Shown here piece after piece: positions 235-5,176 of a stretch of 5,357 nucleotides of DNA (position 1 is its first letter; each line of letters begins with the position of its first letter). The stretch lies in NCBI GenBank assembly GCA_031263435.1, contig JAISFT010000072.1:1-5357 (forward strand). Direction: 5' to 3'. A program made the translations under genes and the position numbers. The stretch is from Treponema sp. (GTDB lineage: Bacteria > Spirochaetota > Spirochaetia > Treponematales > Breznakiellaceae). The notes under the pieces were generated by a model. The model saw only the letters and a program-made list of their open reading frames with translations, ran no database searches and had not been told where the DNA came from.

Positions 235-1776
235 CTACATCAGGGGCGCGAAAATTCGCAGTACATCGGGAACCAGCCGCTGGAAAAAATTCCGGGCGCA
301 GTCGGCCAGACTAATCTCATGGCAGCGGGGCAGGGTGTTAAGAAAATCATCCTTAACCGCGCCGATCGTGCGGTTATGGTACAAGACCACCCCACATTCA
401 AAATGCAAGTACAGGCTGCGAAAGTCCAGGTTGGTGGTACCCACCGTGGCTACCCGGTCATCGGACACAAAGGTTTTGGAGTGGTTAAAGCCATCGGTAT
501 ATTCGTAGACCCTGACCCCCGCGCTGATAAGCTGCCGGTAGTAAGAACGGGAGGTGATGGCTACAATTTTCTTGTCCCAGCGGTGGGGCGTAACGATCCG
601 CACGTCCACCCCGCTCTTTGCCGCCAGCGCAAGGGCGGAAATCAGGTTATCGTCTATCACCAGGTAAGGGGTATTGATGTACACATAGTCCTTTGCATTG
701 TTGATGATCTGAATGTACACATGCTCCCCTACGTTTTCATCGTCAATAGGACTGTCCGCATAGGGTTGGACAAAACCATCGGATTCTACCGGACAGCCCT
801 CCTTCCAGGGGTACAGGGCCGGATAATTTTCGTTCTGCCTGGGATCCAGGTTCCACATTTGGAGGAAGATAAGGGTAAGGGACCATGCCGCCTCCCCCCG
901 CAGCATAATTGCCGCGTCCTTCCAGTGTCCAAACCGTTCTATCTCGTTGATGTATTCGTCCGCCAGGTTCATACCGCCGGTAAAGGCAACTTTTCCGTCG
1001 ATGCAGACAAGTTTACGGTGGTCCCGGTTGTTCTGCAGGGAAGAGAGTATGGGCCTGAAGGCGTTAAAGACGATGCATTTGATCCCCTTTTGCTTCATTT
1101 CTTCGGTAAAACTGGAGGGCAGGGACATGAAGCAGCCAAGGTCATCATAGATAAGCCGAATGTCGAGGCCGGCACGGGCCTTCCGTTCCAGAACGGCCAG
1201 GACAGAATCCAGCATCCGCCCCTGTCTCAGGATAAAAAATTCCAGAAAAATGTACTGTTCCGCGTTTTCCATCTCCTCCAGAATTTTTTTGTGAAAAGCC
1301 TCCCCGGATGCAAGGTATTCCGCCAGGGTATGGTTATAGACCGGGAATCCGGCGTGTTTCTGGAGGTAGCGGGCCTGGGGAAGGAAGTCCCGGTCTTTAG
1401 CCAGCAGGGAGGGAAGGCTGTCACCGGGAAGGTAAAAATATTCTTCGCTTTGGGAATTTGCCCGTTCAAAATACCGGCGCAATCCCCGGGGGTTGGACTG
1501 TAAAAGAAAGATGATGTACAGGACGCCGCCAAAAATAGGGATCATCAGGATAAGAAAAATCCAGGTCAGCTTATAGGCAGGTTTTTCGGTCTTATTAACG
1601 ATGTATATACATACCATGATGCTCAGTATGTTCAGGGCCCAACTGAAATACTGGAACGAGATGCTGGAACCGGCAATTAAAAATACCAAAAAGCCAATCT
1701 GGAGCAGCAGGGCGCTGATAACAAAAACCCGGCGGCGGAGTACTACCCGCAGCCACGGCGCCGTTATACCGGCCAC
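235..1776 (-). CDS. cls: Cardiolipin synthase-type phospholipase D family protein
   Basis: This 513-residue membrane protein likely condenses phosphatidylglycerol (or a related phospholipid) to cardiolipin at the cytoplasmic membrane. The N-terminus has three hydrophobic segments at about 17-35, 41-60 and 69-92, which match the PLDc_N region of bacterial cardiolipin synthases. Two phospholipase D catalytic motifs (HxKxxxxD) follow: H253/K255/D260, then GGMN at 267-270; and H432/K434/D439, then GTTNLDFRS at 446-454. Both catalytic triads are intact and the length is normal for the family. The start is GTG at 1774-1776, overlapping the end of the upstream yciO-like gene by 13 bp. A purine-rich AGGGGGCGGG stretch just upstream can serve as ribosome binding site. 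The overlap implies translational coupling as the last gene of a three-gene operon. The family is secure; the exact lipid substrates cannot be read from sequence. Confidence 0.93.
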   Translation of the reverse strand: MAGITAPWLRVVLRRRVFVISALLLQIGFLVFLIAGSSISFQYFSWALNILSIMVCIYIVNKTEKPAYKLTWIFLILMIPIFGGVLYIIFLLQSNPRGLRRYFERANSQSEEYFYLPGDSLPSLLAKDRDFLPQARYLQKHAGFPVYNHTLAEYLASGEAFHKKILEEMENAEQYIFLEFFILRQGRMLDSVLAVLERKARAGLDIRLIYDDLGCFMSLPSSFTEEMKQKGIKCIVFNAFRPILSSLQNNRDHRKLVCIDGKVAFTGGMNLADEYINEIERFGHWKDAAIMLRGEAAWSLTLIFLQMWNLDPRQNENYPALYPWKEGCPVESDGFVQPYADSPIDDENVGEHVYIQIINNAKDYVYINTPYLVIDDNLISALALAAKSGVDVRIVTPHRWDKKIVAITSRSYYRQLISAGVRVYEYTDGFNHSKTFVSDDRVATVGTTNLDFRSLYLHFECGVVLYHNRTIGAVKDDFLNTLPRCHEISLADCARNFFQRLVPDVLRIFAPLM

Positions 1777-2423
1777 TTTCCCGCCCCCTGGCGGAGGACC
1801 TGCACCCCATCTTCCGTAATGTCCAAAATGGTAGAAAAGATGCGGGTTTGGTTTTCGTCCCCGGAGATGATCATATCCAGTCCCTTGATGGATTCCAGCT
1901 CCTGGTCCGATTCAAAAAGTTCTTCCTCCGGAATTTCCAGGGCCGTTTCGTCTTCGCTGCTGCGGACTCCGTCCGGCCCGTCGATCATGCTCTGTTTTGC
2001 GGTTATTGAATACAGGGGAAACGCCAGGGTTTTGATCAGGGCCAGCGGTATAGGATGATCGGGAATACGGATTCCCACTTCCCGGCGGCGGATATCGAGG
2101 ATCTTCTCCGTCCCCGGCAGAGTTCTCAGGATAAAGGTATAGGCCCCCGGGGACAGCCGCTTGATAAGCCGGAACCGGGTGTTGTCCATGCTGCACAGTT
2201 CCCCAAACTGGGAAATATCTGCACACAGCAGGGTAAAATGCCTCTCGTCCCGCTCCCCCGAAAGGGACTTGAGCTTTTTTATACCTGCCTTTGATTTAAG
2301 GGAGCAGGTCAGGGCCCAGCTTGTATCGGTGGGCAGGGCTACAAGCCCCCCGTCGTTGAGCAGCGCCGCCGCCTTCGTCAATACCCGGTCATCAATGTTT
2401 CCCGGATTTACATATTTGATCAC
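1764..2423 (-). CDS. yciO: YciO/TsaC (Sua5-YrdC) family protein
   Basis: This 219-residue single-domain YrdC-fold protein most resembles E. coli YciO. Recognisable blocks are an N-terminal YVNPGN, PTDTSWAL (31-38), HFTLLC (62-67), YTFIL (95-99), VGIRIPDHPI (116-125) and a C-terminal DITEDGVQVLRQGAG segment. TsaC/Sua5 enzymes make threonylcarbamoyl-AMP from threonine, bicarbonate and ATP for t6A in tRNA; YciO paralogues are less well understood. The Lys-x-Arg block of TsaC is not conserved. The TsaC STSAN motif reads SITAK (139-143), so the usual Asn is Lys. There is no Sua5 C-terminal domain. An acidic stretch at about 155-183 is longer than I recall in E. coli YciO. I chose the GTG at 2421-2423 because it gives the family-like start MIKYVNPGN with a GGGTAGG upstream. 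An in-frame TTG at 2433-2435 would add four residues and overlap the preceding stop by 8 bp. Confidence 0.88.
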   Translation of the reverse strand: MIKYVNPGNIDDRVLTKAAALLNDGGLVALPTDTSWALTCSLKSKAGIKKLKSLSGERDERHFTLLCADISQFGELCSMDNTRFRLIKRLSPGAYTFILRTLPGTEKILDIRRREVGIRIPDHPIPLALIKTLAFPLYSITAKQSMIDGPDGVRSSEDETALEIPEEELFESDQELESIKGLDMIISGDENQTRIFSTILDITEDGVQVLRQGAGKWPV

Positions 2424-2427
2424 AAGC

Positions 2428-2907
2428 CTACCCAACCCATATCAGCTTATTCGGCGCGGATTCCTGAAGAAAGATCTTCTCGTAGCGTCCCGAATGGGAA
2501 ACCCCCGGATTCTCCGGAAAGTAGGTCTTCCGGAAAAACCAAACTATGTCGGACATGACCGCCGGGGAATTGCTGGGGGTGTAACGGAACCATATCTCGT
2601 TATCCTCCAGAATTTGCCGCAATTGCCGCGTGGCGGAAAGCTCCGGGTCGGTAAGACGGCGCAGTTCTGTTCTCAGACCTCCGTAATGGGTATCCCCCAC
2701 ACTGAGCATCCGCAGGTGCTTGCGCTCGTCCATCCAATAGATCTCGTATACCCCGGCCACGGACGGAACACGGGCGTTGATAGTCCAACGATCCGCCGGG
2801 CTGAGGGGAGACCAGTTGATGAAATAGTACACATTTTTGCCCTTTTCCCGGGCGGTAATGCCGTATTCCACTTTACCACTATAGCACAATGATGTTATCT
2901 TTTCCAT
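2428..2907 (-). CDS. Hypothetical protein, possible degenerate GIY-YIG fold
   Basis: I do not recognise this 159-residue protein as a named family. It has no signal peptide or membrane segment and is rich in aromatic and charged residues. The stretch AGVYEIY (51-57), then MLSVGDT (67-73) and GLRTELRRL (77-85), has the layout of a GIY-YIG domain core (GVY for GIY, SVG for YIG, then an Arg-bearing helix). The second Tyr of the signature is missing, so nuclease activity is doubtful. This fold assignment is weak inference. The start is ATG at 2905-2907; only a weak CAGG lies upstream. A TTG at 2968-2970 would add 21 residues but has no ribosome binding site and runs through promoter-like AT-rich DNA, so I rejected it. 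It is the first gene of the operon, with its stop 4 nt before the chosen yciO start. Confidence 0.75.
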   Translation of the reverse strand: MEKITSLCYSGKVEYGITAREKGKNVYYFINWSPLSPADRWTINARVPSVAGVYEIYWMDERKHLRMLSVGDTHYGGLRTELRRLTDPELSATRQLRQILEDNEIWFRYTPSNSPAVMSDIVWFFRKTYFPENPGVSHSGRYEKIFLQESAPNKLIWVG

Positions 2908-2925: not shown

Positions 2926-2941
2926 TGTATAAAAATTTATA
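2926..2941 (-). promoter_or_regulatory. Possible -10 region for the minus-strand operon
   Basis: Read on the minus strand, TATAAA (2941-2936) and TATACA (2931-2926) lie 19-34 nt before the ATG at 2907. A TTGGAC at 2970-2965 resembles a -35 box, but it is 23 nt from TATAAA, too far for a standard sigma-70 promoter. The AT-rich block makes a start site here plausible; the precise boxes are uncertain. Confidence 0.3.
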
Positions 2942-2984
2942 CATTTTGGCCCGCCAGGCGAAAAGTCCAAAATTTCCGGACTGT

Positions 2985-3011
2985 GTAATTCCTTATATTA
3001 CAAGGAATTAC
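2985..3011. promoter_or_regulatory. 27-bp inverted repeat, candidate operator or activator site
   Basis: GTAATTCCTT (2985-2994) is perfectly complementary in reverse to AAGGAATTAC (3002-3011), with a 7-nt spacer. A further GGAATTA at 3012-3018 repeats 3004-3010 with 8-bp periodicity. The dyad centre (2998) lies about 66 bp upstream of the predicted sigma-54 start near 3064, and also upstream of the divergent minus-strand operon. It is followed by neither a U-tract nor a gene end, so a regulator-binding site is more likely than a terminator. The repeat is seen directly; its role is inference. Confidence 0.6.
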
Positions 3012-3036: not shown

Positions 3037-3053
3037 TTGGCATGAAAATTGCA
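3037..3053 (+). promoter_or_regulatory. Sigma-54 (-24/-12) promoter of the sigma-factor gene
   Basis: TTGGCATG (3037-3044), four A residues, then TTGCA (3049-3053) matches the sigma-54 consensus YTGGCACG-N4-TTGCW at all but one core base. The invariant GG (3039-3040) and GC (3051-3052) have the required 12-bp offset. The predicted start is near 3064, giving a leader of about 32 nt. The same DNA also offers TTGGCA with TATACT (3058-3063), but only a 15-bp spacer, so a sigma-70 reading is weaker though not excluded. Confidence 0.7.
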
Positions 3054-3095
3054 GTATTATACTGGACCTGTTAGAAGACTCGTCCGGAGGTTGTT

Positions 3096-3959
3096 ATGAC
3101 TACGTTGAAAAATAACGATGAGGACACCCAAGAGGTCAATGTTTTGCAGACTTACTTCAACCAGATTAAGGCGATTCCTCTGCTGAGTTTTGAGGAAGCG
3201 TTGGAATTATCGAAGCGAATCCGGCAGGGTGATGAAGATGCCCGCCGTAAACTTATAGAGGCGAATCTCCGCCTGGTCATCAAGATTGCCCGCGGTTATG
3301 CATCCTACGATACCCCGCTCATGGATATTATCCAGGAAGGAAACCTGGGACTTATCCGGGCGGCGGAAAAGTACGACTATTCCAAGAATATCCGCTTTTC
3401 CACCTATGCAAGCTGGTGGATTCGTCAGGCTATTTCCCGTTATATCTCCAACAAGCAGCGGGCCATCCGCCTGCCCCACCGCAAAGAGGTGCTTCTGTAC
3501 AGGATACGGCGGGCCTACCAGTCCCTGAGTCAGACTTTGATGCACCAGCCCACAAGCGGGGAAATTGCCGATTATCTGGGGCTTACGGTGGAAGCTGTGG
3601 ATCAGATCATCAAGGCTGCCCACGGGGCCGTTTCCCTGGAGTTGGACGGCGGGTCCGGTGAATCCGCGGCCATTGCGGATCTTCACGAAGATTACACCTA
3701 CAACCCCGAGCGGACCTTTTTGCGCAAGTGTGCCCGTGCCGATACGATCCGCTTTTTGGGAATGCTCAAGGACCGGGAAAAACGGATCCTGATGAGCCGC
3801 TACCAGCTTGACGGCTCCAAAGATCGTACCCTTAAAACGATTGGGGATAGGATGGGGATCTCCCCGGAAACGGTGCGCCAGATCGAGATCAGGGCCCTTA
3901 AAAAGATCCGGAGCCATGCGGAAGAACTGAGGAACTGTGTTTACAGCGATGCGATGTAA
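3096..3959 (+). CDS. RNA polymerase sigma-70 family factor (group 2-like)
   Basis: This 287-residue protein directs RNA polymerase to a subset of promoters. Domains in order: region 1.2 at about 16-44; region 2 at about 51-126, with DIIQEGNLGLIRAAEKYDY (77-95) and the -10-melting and recognition segment FSTYASWWIRQAISRYI (101-117), then IRLP (124-127); region 3 at about 130-177; region 4 at about 222-272, with its helix-turn-helix at 245-271. Region 1.1 is absent, unlike a housekeeping RpoD, so this is a group 2 or RpoS-like factor. The RpoH-specific box is not seen. In the -35 recognition helix the usual TRERIRQIE reads SPETVRQIE (256-264), replacing two commonly conserved Arg. The start ATG follows a strong GGAGG (3086-3090) with 5-nt spacing. 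The gene is monocistronic by appearance, with a sigma-54-like promoter upstream and an intrinsic terminator downstream. I leave the symbol blank because RpoS and SigA-type names cannot be separated without a tree. Confidence 0.93.
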   Translation: MTTLKNNDEDTQEVNVLQTYFNQIKAIPLLSFEEALELSKRIRQGDEDARRKLIEANLRLVIKIARGYASYDTPLMDIIQEGNLGLIRAAEKYDYSKNIRFSTYASWWIRQAISRYISNKQRAIRLPHRKEVLLYRIRRAYQSLSQTLMHQPTSGEIADYLGLTVEAVDQIIKAAHGAVSLELDGGSGESAAIADLHEDYTYNPERTFLRKCARADTIRFLGMLKDREKRILMSRYQLDGSKDRTLKTIGDRMGISPETVRQIEIRALKKIRSHAEELRNCVYSDAM

Positions 3960-3991
3960 GCCCCGGCGGTAATTTTACAGGCTGCATGCAG

Positions 3992-4022
3992 GCCGGCAGG
4001 GCATTCCTGCCGGCTTTTTTTT
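3992..4022 (+). terminator. Intrinsic terminator of the sigma-factor gene
   Basis: GCCGGCAGG (3992-4000), loop GCATT, CCTGCCGGC (4006-4014), then eight T (4015-4022): a 9-bp GC-rich stem with a U-tract, 32 nt after the sigma-gene stop. It ends exactly where the tsaD ribosome binding site begins, so any transcript reaching tsaD from upstream must pass through it. Confidence 0.95.
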
Positions 4023-4030: not shown

Positions 4031-5176
4031 ATGAAGGTTTTAGGGCTGGAGTCTTCCTGCGATGAATGTGCCGCTGCGGTGGTAGAGGACGGCAGGAAGA
4101 TACTTTCCAATGTTGTACATACCCAGATACCTTTCCATGCCGCTTATGACGGGGTGGTCCCGGAGATAGCAAGCCGCAAGCATACCGAGTGGATCTACGG
4201 GGTGGCAAAGCAGGCCCTGGAGGATGCGGGCCTTGGGCCGGGGGATATCGACGGAGTTGCCGCCACCTCCCGGCCGGGTCTGCTGGGTTCCCTGTTGGTG
4301 GGACTTAGCTTTGCCAAGTCCTTTGCCTGGGCCCGGAATGTGCCCTTTATCGCGGTAAACCACATGCTGGCCCATCTCTACGCTTCCCGGCTCGAAGAAA
4401 AGCAGGGGGGGCCTCCGGGGCCTTTACCTAGCGGGGAGACGGCCGGGGAAGCCCCGCAGGGCCCCGCTTACCCCTTTCTGGGGCTACTGGTTTCCGGGGG
4501 GCATAGTATCATCTGCCGGGTGGACAATTTTGATGATATTACGGTGCTGGGGACCACGATTGACGATGCGGTGGGGGAGGCATTTGACAAGGTTTCCAAA
4601 TATTACGGTTTCGGCTACCCCGGAGGGGCGGCCATCGACCGGCTGGCCCGGACCGGGGACCCGGAGGCCTTTAATTTCCCCCTGCCGAGGCTCCACAAGG
4701 GGCAGCACCCCTACGACATGTCCTATTCGGGGCTTAAAACCGCGGTGGTAAACCAGTTGGAACAGTTCCGCCGCCGTTCTCCCAGCGGAACAGCGCCCGG
4801 TCCGGACCGTGGAGAAGGCCCGGATACGGCGGGGGAGGGCAAGGACAGTCCGGCAGGGGCTGAAGGGGCCGATATTGCCGCGTCCTTTCAGCGGGCGGCC
4901 ATAGAAATTCTGCTCCGCAGCCTTTTCCGGGCCGCCGCCGACACCGGGCTGAGTACCATTGTGGCGGGGGGCGGAGTCGCGGCCAATTCCTGTTTACGGG
5001 AACGGCTCGCCGCCCGGCAGGACCTGCGCTGCATCTTCCCCCCCCCGGAACTCTGCGGGGATAACGGCGCCATGGTGGCCGGGATTGGCTTCCGCTACCT
5101 GGCCCGGGGAGAAACCTCGCCGTTCAGGGTAACTGCCTCCGCCCGGGTAGAGGGCTTTAAGCGGAAGTACCCGTAG
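4031..5176 (+). CDS. tsaD: tRNA N6-adenosine threonylcarbamoyltransferase TsaD
   Basis: TsaD (Gcp/Kae1/YgjD) transfers the threonylcarbamoyl group from threonylcarbamoyl-AMP to A37 of ANN-decoding tRNAs in the cytoplasm, working with TsaB and TsaE. Visible signatures: ESSCDE (7-12); metal-binding H111 and H115 in NHMLAHLYA; nucleotide-binding LVSGGHS (153-159); DDAVGEAFDK (178-187); GYPGG (195-199); YSGLKT (232-237); GGGVAANS (313-320); and CGDNGAMVA (342-350) with metal ligand D344. All core residues appear intact. At 381 residues it is longer than the usual 335-350, because of two Pro/Gly-rich low-complexity insertions at about 122-145 and 246-279. A run of nine C (5038-5046) encodes FPPP just before the D344 motif. 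No convincing promoter is seen between the sigma gene and tsaD, and the terminator abuts its ribosome binding site. Neither TsaB nor TsaE is in the window. Confidence 0.97.
   Translation: MKVLGLESSCDECAAAVVEDGRKILSNVVHTQIPFHAAYDGVVPEIASRKHTEWIYGVAKQALEDAGLGPGDIDGVAATSRPGLLGSLLVGLSFAKSFAWARNVPFIAVNHMLAHLYASRLEEKQGGPPGPLPSGETAGEAPQGPAYPFLGLLVSGGHSIICRVDNFDDITVLGTTIDDAVGEAFDKVSKYYGFGYPGGAAIDRLARTGDPEAFNFPLPRLHKGQHPYDMSYSGLKTAVVNQLEQFRRRSPSGTAPGPDRGEGPDTAGEGKDSPAGAEGADIAASFQRAAIEILLRSLFRAAADTGLSTIVAGGGVAANSCLRERLAARQDLRCIFPPPELCGDNGAMVAGIGFRYLARGETSPFRVTASARVEGFKRKYP

Follow-up and report, generated by a model that had tools for sequence, protein, structure and literature searches.

The locus raises the question of whether a small sigma-factor gene of a Treponema is placed under sigma-54 (RpoN), as is already known for a sigma factor of Borrelia, and, if so, whether the two arrangements have a common origin. 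The RpoN-RpoS cascade has so far been treated as a Borrelia matter: the part available of a 2019 study describes Borrelia as having 'appropriated' RpoN for rpoS transcription (PMC6719511), the accessible text of a 2011 survey of sigma-54 mentions Borrelia ten times and Treponema, Leptospira or any word in spirochaet- not once (PMC3162934), and among the literature matches listed (titles and abstract openings, with few subscription papers) none dealt with sigma-54 control of sigma factors in spirochaetes beyond Borrelia. We did not find in print what is described here, namely that the same wiring is widespread in spirochaetes and is accompanied by an upstream dyad, an additional operator and a parallel sigma-factor clade.

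In the window, by which we mean the whole stretch of 5,357 nucleotides that was analysed, the gene and its immediate surroundings comprise the following features:

1764-2435, minus strand: TsaC-type gene, divergent from the sigma gene
3037..3053, plus strand: -24/-12 sigma-54 promoter, TTGGCATGAAAATTGCA, 12/12 informative positions, kept before clade-S genes
3086..3090, plus strand: ribosome-binding site GGAGG, from the sequence
3096..3959, plus strand: clade-S sigma-70-family factor of 287 aa, assigned by domain matches, tree and R129-K130-E131 in region 3.0
3992..4022, plus strand: putative intrinsic terminator (stem 3990-4016, T tail)
4031..5176, plus strand: tsaD, beyond the terminator and outside the circuit

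Promoters were scored on the 12 informative positions of the sigma-54 consensus, TGGCA[CT]G-N4-TTGC[AT]. The core of the element, TGGCATGAAAATTGCA (3038-3053), carries GG at 3039-3040 and GC at 3051-3052, exactly 12 apart, and the predicted transcription start at 3064 lies 32 nt 5' of the ATG at 3096. The encoded protein matches regions 1.2, 2, 3 and 4 and gives no match for region 1.1, which makes it a sigma factor of the group 2 type. The original prediction of a -24/-12 match with exact spacing, correctly placed and oriented before such a gene, is thereby confirmed (12/12, GG and GC 12 apart, plus strand), and we regard 3037-3053 as a convincing sigma-54-type promoter, presumably active. 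With a stricter pattern, TGGCACG-N5-TGCW, the whole window contains 22 matches with up to three mismatches, a total not above chance (shuffle mean 18.3), and 3037-3053 is the only one among them with a single mismatch. In 2000 simulated first-order Markov windows, 12/12 sites arose at a rate of 0.0015 per window, both strands included. A terminator-like hairpin lies 3' of the coding region and makes it probable that the transcript covers no gene but the sigma gene, although the terminator scan was not significant by itself (1 found versus 1.3 in shuffles).

The main argument against a chance origin is the conservation of the site before relatives of the gene. Two sets of homologues were assembled. 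The first comprised the best 80 of 576 confirmed homologous stretches, 55 of them from spirochaetes, and 53 of these 55 carried a site of at least 10/12. The second was drawn from 392 genomes of the spirochaete phylum, 389 of which gave some match, mostly to RpoD or other paralogues; it consisted of 30 loci from the genome search and 60 further ones, 52 taken in score order and eight picked by hand (G282, G168, G335, G336, G404, G427, G369 and G398), with the partial matches in G364 and G142 and the duplicate G041 left out. Duplicates (L088, L090, L096, L112 and L114) were removed before the final count, which covers 129 genes of the clade that contains the window gene (clade S), 91 assigned by a tree of 150 proteins and the remaining 38, all first-set genes, on the basis of similarity; a group designated T was counted apart, and FliA-type sigma genes lay outside the survey. 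Within 300 bases 5' of the homology match, 123 of the 129 clade-S genes have a site of at least 10/12 (at least 11 in 115 and 12/12 in 70), figures that represent no share of genomes, since the loci were mostly chosen by score and weaker homologues are under-sampled. The original prediction had singled out the GG and GC bases in relatives that retain the gene, and the outcome favours it: in these 123 both are kept. L034 and L171 preserve TGGCACG-N4-TTG with the GC changed to GA, L128 has a best site of 9/12, and no sigma-54 site was found in the 300 bases upstream of L039, L138 and L144 (3/129); the last of these belongs to a genome (G073) with two copies of the gene, and there the other copy, L123, does carry the site.

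Control genes behaved differently. Sites of at least 10/12 were found before none of the spirochaete controls (RpoD 0/9, clade B 0/11, other sigma-70 genes 0/2; 0/22 together) and none of the non-spirochaete homologues (0/25), and the comparison of clade S with the 22 spirochaete control genes, for rows that are not independent, gives a Fisher value of 2.4e-21. When the stretch was widened to as much as 350 bases before the first start, clade-B L192 showed 10/12 at -228 and L196 9/12 at -240. The background, taken from 2.34 Mb of the clade-S loci outside their own promoters (both strands), amounts to 97 sites of at least 10/12, or 0.012 per 300 bases, and to 6 sites of at least 11/12, or 0.0008 per 300 bases.

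Two further elements upstream of the promoter, missing from the original prediction, were found here. Together with the nearest divergent reading frame they are:

2428..2907, minus strand: small divergent open reading frame without family match, its start 18 bp from the dyad
2926..2943, no strand assigned: distal dyad TGTATAAAAATTTATACA (TGTAT-N8-ATACA, 18 bp, perfect), candidate sigma-54 activator site
2985..3011, no strand assigned: palindromic operator GTAATTCCTTATATTACAAGGAATTAC, centred at about -66, candidate site of a further regulator

When the clade-S upstream regions are aligned on the promoter, TGTAT-N8-ATACA often recurs about 104 bp before the sigma-54 site; the window copy is centred at about -129 from the predicted start, and its separation from the promoter is typical for enhancers. 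With a spacer of 8, at least 9 of the 10 positions match in 78 of the 123 clade-S promoters, 44 of them perfectly, and the dyad is missing at that threshold in the other 45. The consensus derives from the same promoters in which it was counted, the other spacers serving as the control: spacers 2-7 and 9-15 gave 1-13 of 123, with at most 1 perfect. Exact copies number 1-12 per genome in 12 genomes, compared with 1-5 for the reversed pattern, and a 10/12 sigma-54 site occurs within 250 bp of only 3 of the 17 other copies read (L240, L242 and L251). These figures led us to reject the dyad as the marker of a large regulon. In L240 and L242, which are near-identical copies, the dyad stands 219 bp before the sigma-54 site, and in L251 (G391) it stands 102 bp before another sigma-54 site, of 11/12.

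The pattern makes 2926-2943 the likely candidate for an activator (enhancer) site, a defined one that Borrelia lacks. The best-surviving alternative, that the dyad is the operator of another regulator or part of the divergent gene, strikes us as unlikely though worth keeping in view. It draws on the nearness of the divergent start, the lack of a dyad at the Borrelia rpoS promoter scanned (L167), the few other copies near a 10/12 site, and the fact that the activator encoded beside the Treponema primitia sigma gene is not universal. A role tied to the divergent gene fits poorly with the distribution by upstream reading frame, since the dyad is also present where that frame is co-directional (30 of 57, against 43 of 55 where it is divergent and 5 of 11 where no frame was found), and L251, with its dyad before a different sigma-54 promoter, likewise speaks for an enhancer. 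The distance to the promoter agrees, moreover, with that of enhancers as given in the part available of one Borrelia study (PMC3037356).

The palindrome belongs to a family, TAATTCNTTN7AANGARTTA, that occurs in all 12 genomes searched with 1-19 forward-strand copies each, while the reversed pattern was found in none of the 12. Of 40 copies read, six are accompanied by a nearby sigma-54 site scoring 10/12 or more: four stand before clade-S genes, one before a lipoprotein-like gene and one before an Hsp20 gene. Further copies (among L255-L293) precede dnaA, dnaN, a gyrB-like gene and transporter-like and integrase-like genes; DnaA, DnaN, an ATPase domain, Hsp20 and one integrase are backed by Pfam, the rest being assigned by eye. 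We rejected the palindrome as a sigma-54 enhancer, as 34 of the 40 copies lack a 10/12 site within 140 bp, several of these stretches reaching contig ends. It looks instead like the operator of a regulator with many other targets, perhaps a global one. In one genome (G354), two near-identical lipoprotein-like genes (L240 and L242, named by eye) combine a sigma-54 site of 12/12 with TGTAT-type dyads and the palindrome, a promoter anatomy resembling that of the sigma gene, and an Hsp20 gene (L274) has a 12/12 site and the palindrome.

What kind of sigma factor does this promoter serve? Among the 25 NCBIfam matches listed, only the superfamily model TIGR02937 exceeds its cut-off; the two best, at 231 bits each, are the cyanobacterial RpoD/SigA type (cut-off 384.5) and proteobacterial RpoS (378.7). 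The closest relatives are metagenome proteins, from 95% identity downwards, several of them named Treponema sp., and we take the lineage to be one from termite guts. Trees were built from 150 proteins (quick) and from 92 rows (careful), the latter without L193, L195, L068 and most clade-S rows. In both, the window protein and Borrelia rpoS fall within clade S, with support of 96 (SH-aLRT) in the quick tree and 98/97 in the careful one. Borrelia is represented by L167 in both trees and by L237 in the careful tree only, L237 being 95% identical to a Borrelia recurrentis protein and 89% to Borreliella bavariensis RpoS; the genome G309 was labelled Borrelia by protein identity (95%, 89%) and G282 by its 98% near-identity to G309. 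The careful tree also places clades S and C and the T group on one side of an unstarred branch (92/91).

In region 3.0, clade-S proteins share a tripeptide, R-K-E (R129-K130-E131 in the window), present in 79 of 90 clade-S rows and in both Borrelia rows, in at least 44 of 56 first-set proteins (as x-R-K-E), and in 103 of 119 new proteins from the best 120 of 4408 matches to Borrelia rpoS (two Borrelia entries included), none of which has the clade-C signature. It is absent from clade C (0/19), RpoD (0/10, which reads HMI), B-type (0/13) and non-spirochaete proteins (0/8), and from E. coli RpoS (HIV). The accessible text of a study that also treats K173 and E458 proposes R121 and K122 of Borrelia RpoS as possible counterparts of E. 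coli RpoS K173 (PMC6719511), and the sole R-K of Borrelia RpoS in region 3.0 is that of the R-K-E signature. By shared clade and signature, the window protein can be classed as a Borrelia-type RpoS (clade S). Proteobacterial RpoS was rejected as its family: E. coli sigma-S is likewise a group 2 member of the sigma-70 family, with 39% identity, but the match is 231 bits against 378.7, the E. coli protein groups with Nitrospirota in the careful tree, outside clade S, and HIV replaces R-K-E; moreover, E. coli rpoS has no sigma-54 site of even 9/12 in the 350 bases upstream.

The sister clade C is a small sigma paralogue of about 280-320 aa (L200-L216 and L172-L174). Like the window gene, its members have a sigma-54 site upstream (15 of 17; two basal members have none, 0/2); unlike it, they carry N-[RK]-x in place of R-K-E (NRA or NRT in 16 of 19). 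As read from these promoters, clade C is a second sigma-54-driven sigma factor of spirochaetes. The spacer-8 dyad was found before none of 15 clade-C genes, and a dyad common to the clade was rejected as weak, spacer 7 occurring in just 5 of 15. In 8 of 17 loci, a receiver-domain enhancer-binding gene lies within the 1.8 to 8.8 kb read upstream, and the encoded proteins, 52-56% identical to their Borrelia counterparts, are Rrp2. The T group (L154, L159-L161, L164-L166 and L168) has sigma-54 sites in 7 of 8 and R-K-G in 8 of 8, and its position differs between the quick and careful trees.

The earlier suggestion of an ancient or convergent cascade is supported, leaning towards ancient. Convergence, meaning that the site is real but that Borrelia and the window's Treponema lineage acquired the wiring independently, appears improbable to us. 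It can appeal to the long branch of Borrelia rpoS (1.7 changes per column), on account of which the tree alone is not final for this protein, and to the AU test, which does not reject Borrelia beside clade C (p 0.121) and only marginally rejects a grouping with E. coli/Nitrospirota RpoS (p 0.0488); the sigma-54 sites of clade C and the T group, in addition, make more than one gain possible. Against it, Borrelia lies within clade S at 98/97 and shares R-K-E with the clade, nearly all other clade-S lineages examined have the sites, and both candidate homes of Borrelia rpoS, S and C, are sigma-54-driven. The weakest alternative, an ordinary sigma-70 promoter with TTGGCA (3037-3042) as -35 and TATACT (3058-3063) as -10, can be dismissed as very improbable and was rejected: each hexamer matches 5/6 of its consensus and many relatives have an A/T-rich stretch 3' of the -12 element, but the hexamer spacer is 15 rather than 16-18, the GG and GC kept 12 apart in 123 of 129 genes would be needless for such a promoter, and a promoter scan found no sigma-70 promoter on the plus strand before the sigma gene.

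A sigma-54-dependent promoter requires RpoN and an activator. Of the 46 genomes of related loci that were searched, 41 encode an RpoN domain. In the five genomes where none was found, four loci (L002, L012, L019 and L054) keep 11/12 or 12/12 sites and the fifth is L034, with its GC changed to GA; assembly gaps may explain the absences, and the genomes of L012, L019 and L054 are titled MAG. An Rrp2 orthologue of at least 54% identity and nearly full length, with receiver, AAA+ and Fis-type DNA-binding domains, is encoded in 34 of 35 genomes (two Borrelia and the query's own included), the best Rrp2-like match in G019 being just 42%. The genome of the nearest locus, L001 (G001), has both RpoN and Rrp2, and the organism of the window presumably has them too, as its relatives do. 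Rrp2 of T. denticola is described, in the part available of a recent source, as an unstudied, predicted sigma-54 activator (PMC12070737).

The identity of the activator was approached by comparing two families across genomes, Rrp2 and the T. primitia type. A motif scan of the 56 first-set clade-S loci, many of them on short contigs, gave a single enhancer-binding gene (L008; not Rrp2); in the second set, where mostly 1.5 or 3 kb were read to either side, one lies beside the T. primitia sigma gene (L085) and a partial one on the other strand in L151. With 37-42% identity to the Borrelia proteins, those encoded in L008 and L085 represent a different type, and the T. primitia activator was rejected as universal, because the nearest relative searched, G001, has no close copy (best full-length match 41%). 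Since rrp2 adjoins clade C (8/17) and activators of any kind rarely lie near clade S (1/56), Rrp2 may chiefly serve clade C. The owner of the dyad may be Rrp2, which nearly all genomes tested encode and which is the established activator in Borrelia, or, given that rrp2 sits with clade C, another protein.

Taken together, we consider it highly probable that 3037-3053 is a working promoter of a clade-S sigma gene, in a cascade inherited from early spirochaetes of which the Borrelia pathway is a dyad-less descendant. In the mechanism that we propose from the sequence comparisons, the dyad at 2926-2943 would be bound by an enhancer-binding protein of the AAA+ class, for which the Rrp2 orthologue or a response regulator akin to it is the likeliest candidate; this protein would loop to closed RpoN-RNA polymerase at 3037-3053 and open the complex with ATP; the transcript would start near 3064, cover the sigma gene alone and stop at 3992-4022; the sigma factor would then direct polymerase to a further group of promoters, with another regulator at 2985-3011 tuning the output. 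The Borrelia Rrp2-RpoN-RpoS pathway would descend from the same cascade, its dyad gone.

The comparison with Borrelia fits this account in several respects. As in the window, a -24/-12 promoter precedes a small group-2-type sigma gene encoding a clade-S protein with R-K-E, and, as in relatives of the window, Rrp2 and RpoN orthologues are encoded. The window promoter differs in having the dyad and the palindrome, the dyad being absent from the Borrelia rpoS promoter (L167), and in gene context, rrp2 lying about 7 kb from Borrelia rpoS and the window gene beside tsaD and TsaC-type genes. According to the portions available of two studies, the Borrelia rpoS promoter is sigma-54-dependent and its pathway additionally requires BosR (PMC3037356), and Rrp2 bound nowhere in the 238 bp preceding rpoS, its activation needing no enhancer (PMC1976401); loss of the dyad would explain this enhancer-independent activation. 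A search of two Borrelia genomes yielded RpoD and rpoS alone, and no gene of clade C.

These observations incline us, somewhat more than not, to a broader proposal, in which an RpoN-to-sigma cascade with the dyad and with S and C in parallel was ancestral in spirochaetes and the Borrelia switch is a remnant that lost clade C and the dyad and kept Rrp2. The cascade is not universal today, because L. interrogans is reported, in the accessible part of one source, to be without RpoS (PMC12655853). If it is ancestral and widespread, its original purpose would have been something other than the switch between tick and mammal, the debated relationship of Borrelia RpoS would find an answer, and harmless spirochaetes could serve as models.

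Two minor features of the window may be recorded. The sigma gene is flanked by genes for TsaC-type and TsaD enzymes, which belong to one and the same tRNA modification, and a cardiolipin synthase gene also lies on its divergent side. At the left contig end, a long inverted repeat, GGGGCTATGCCCCGCCCTGCCATCGGCCTTGC and its complement, was noted by eye at 19-51 and 137-169.
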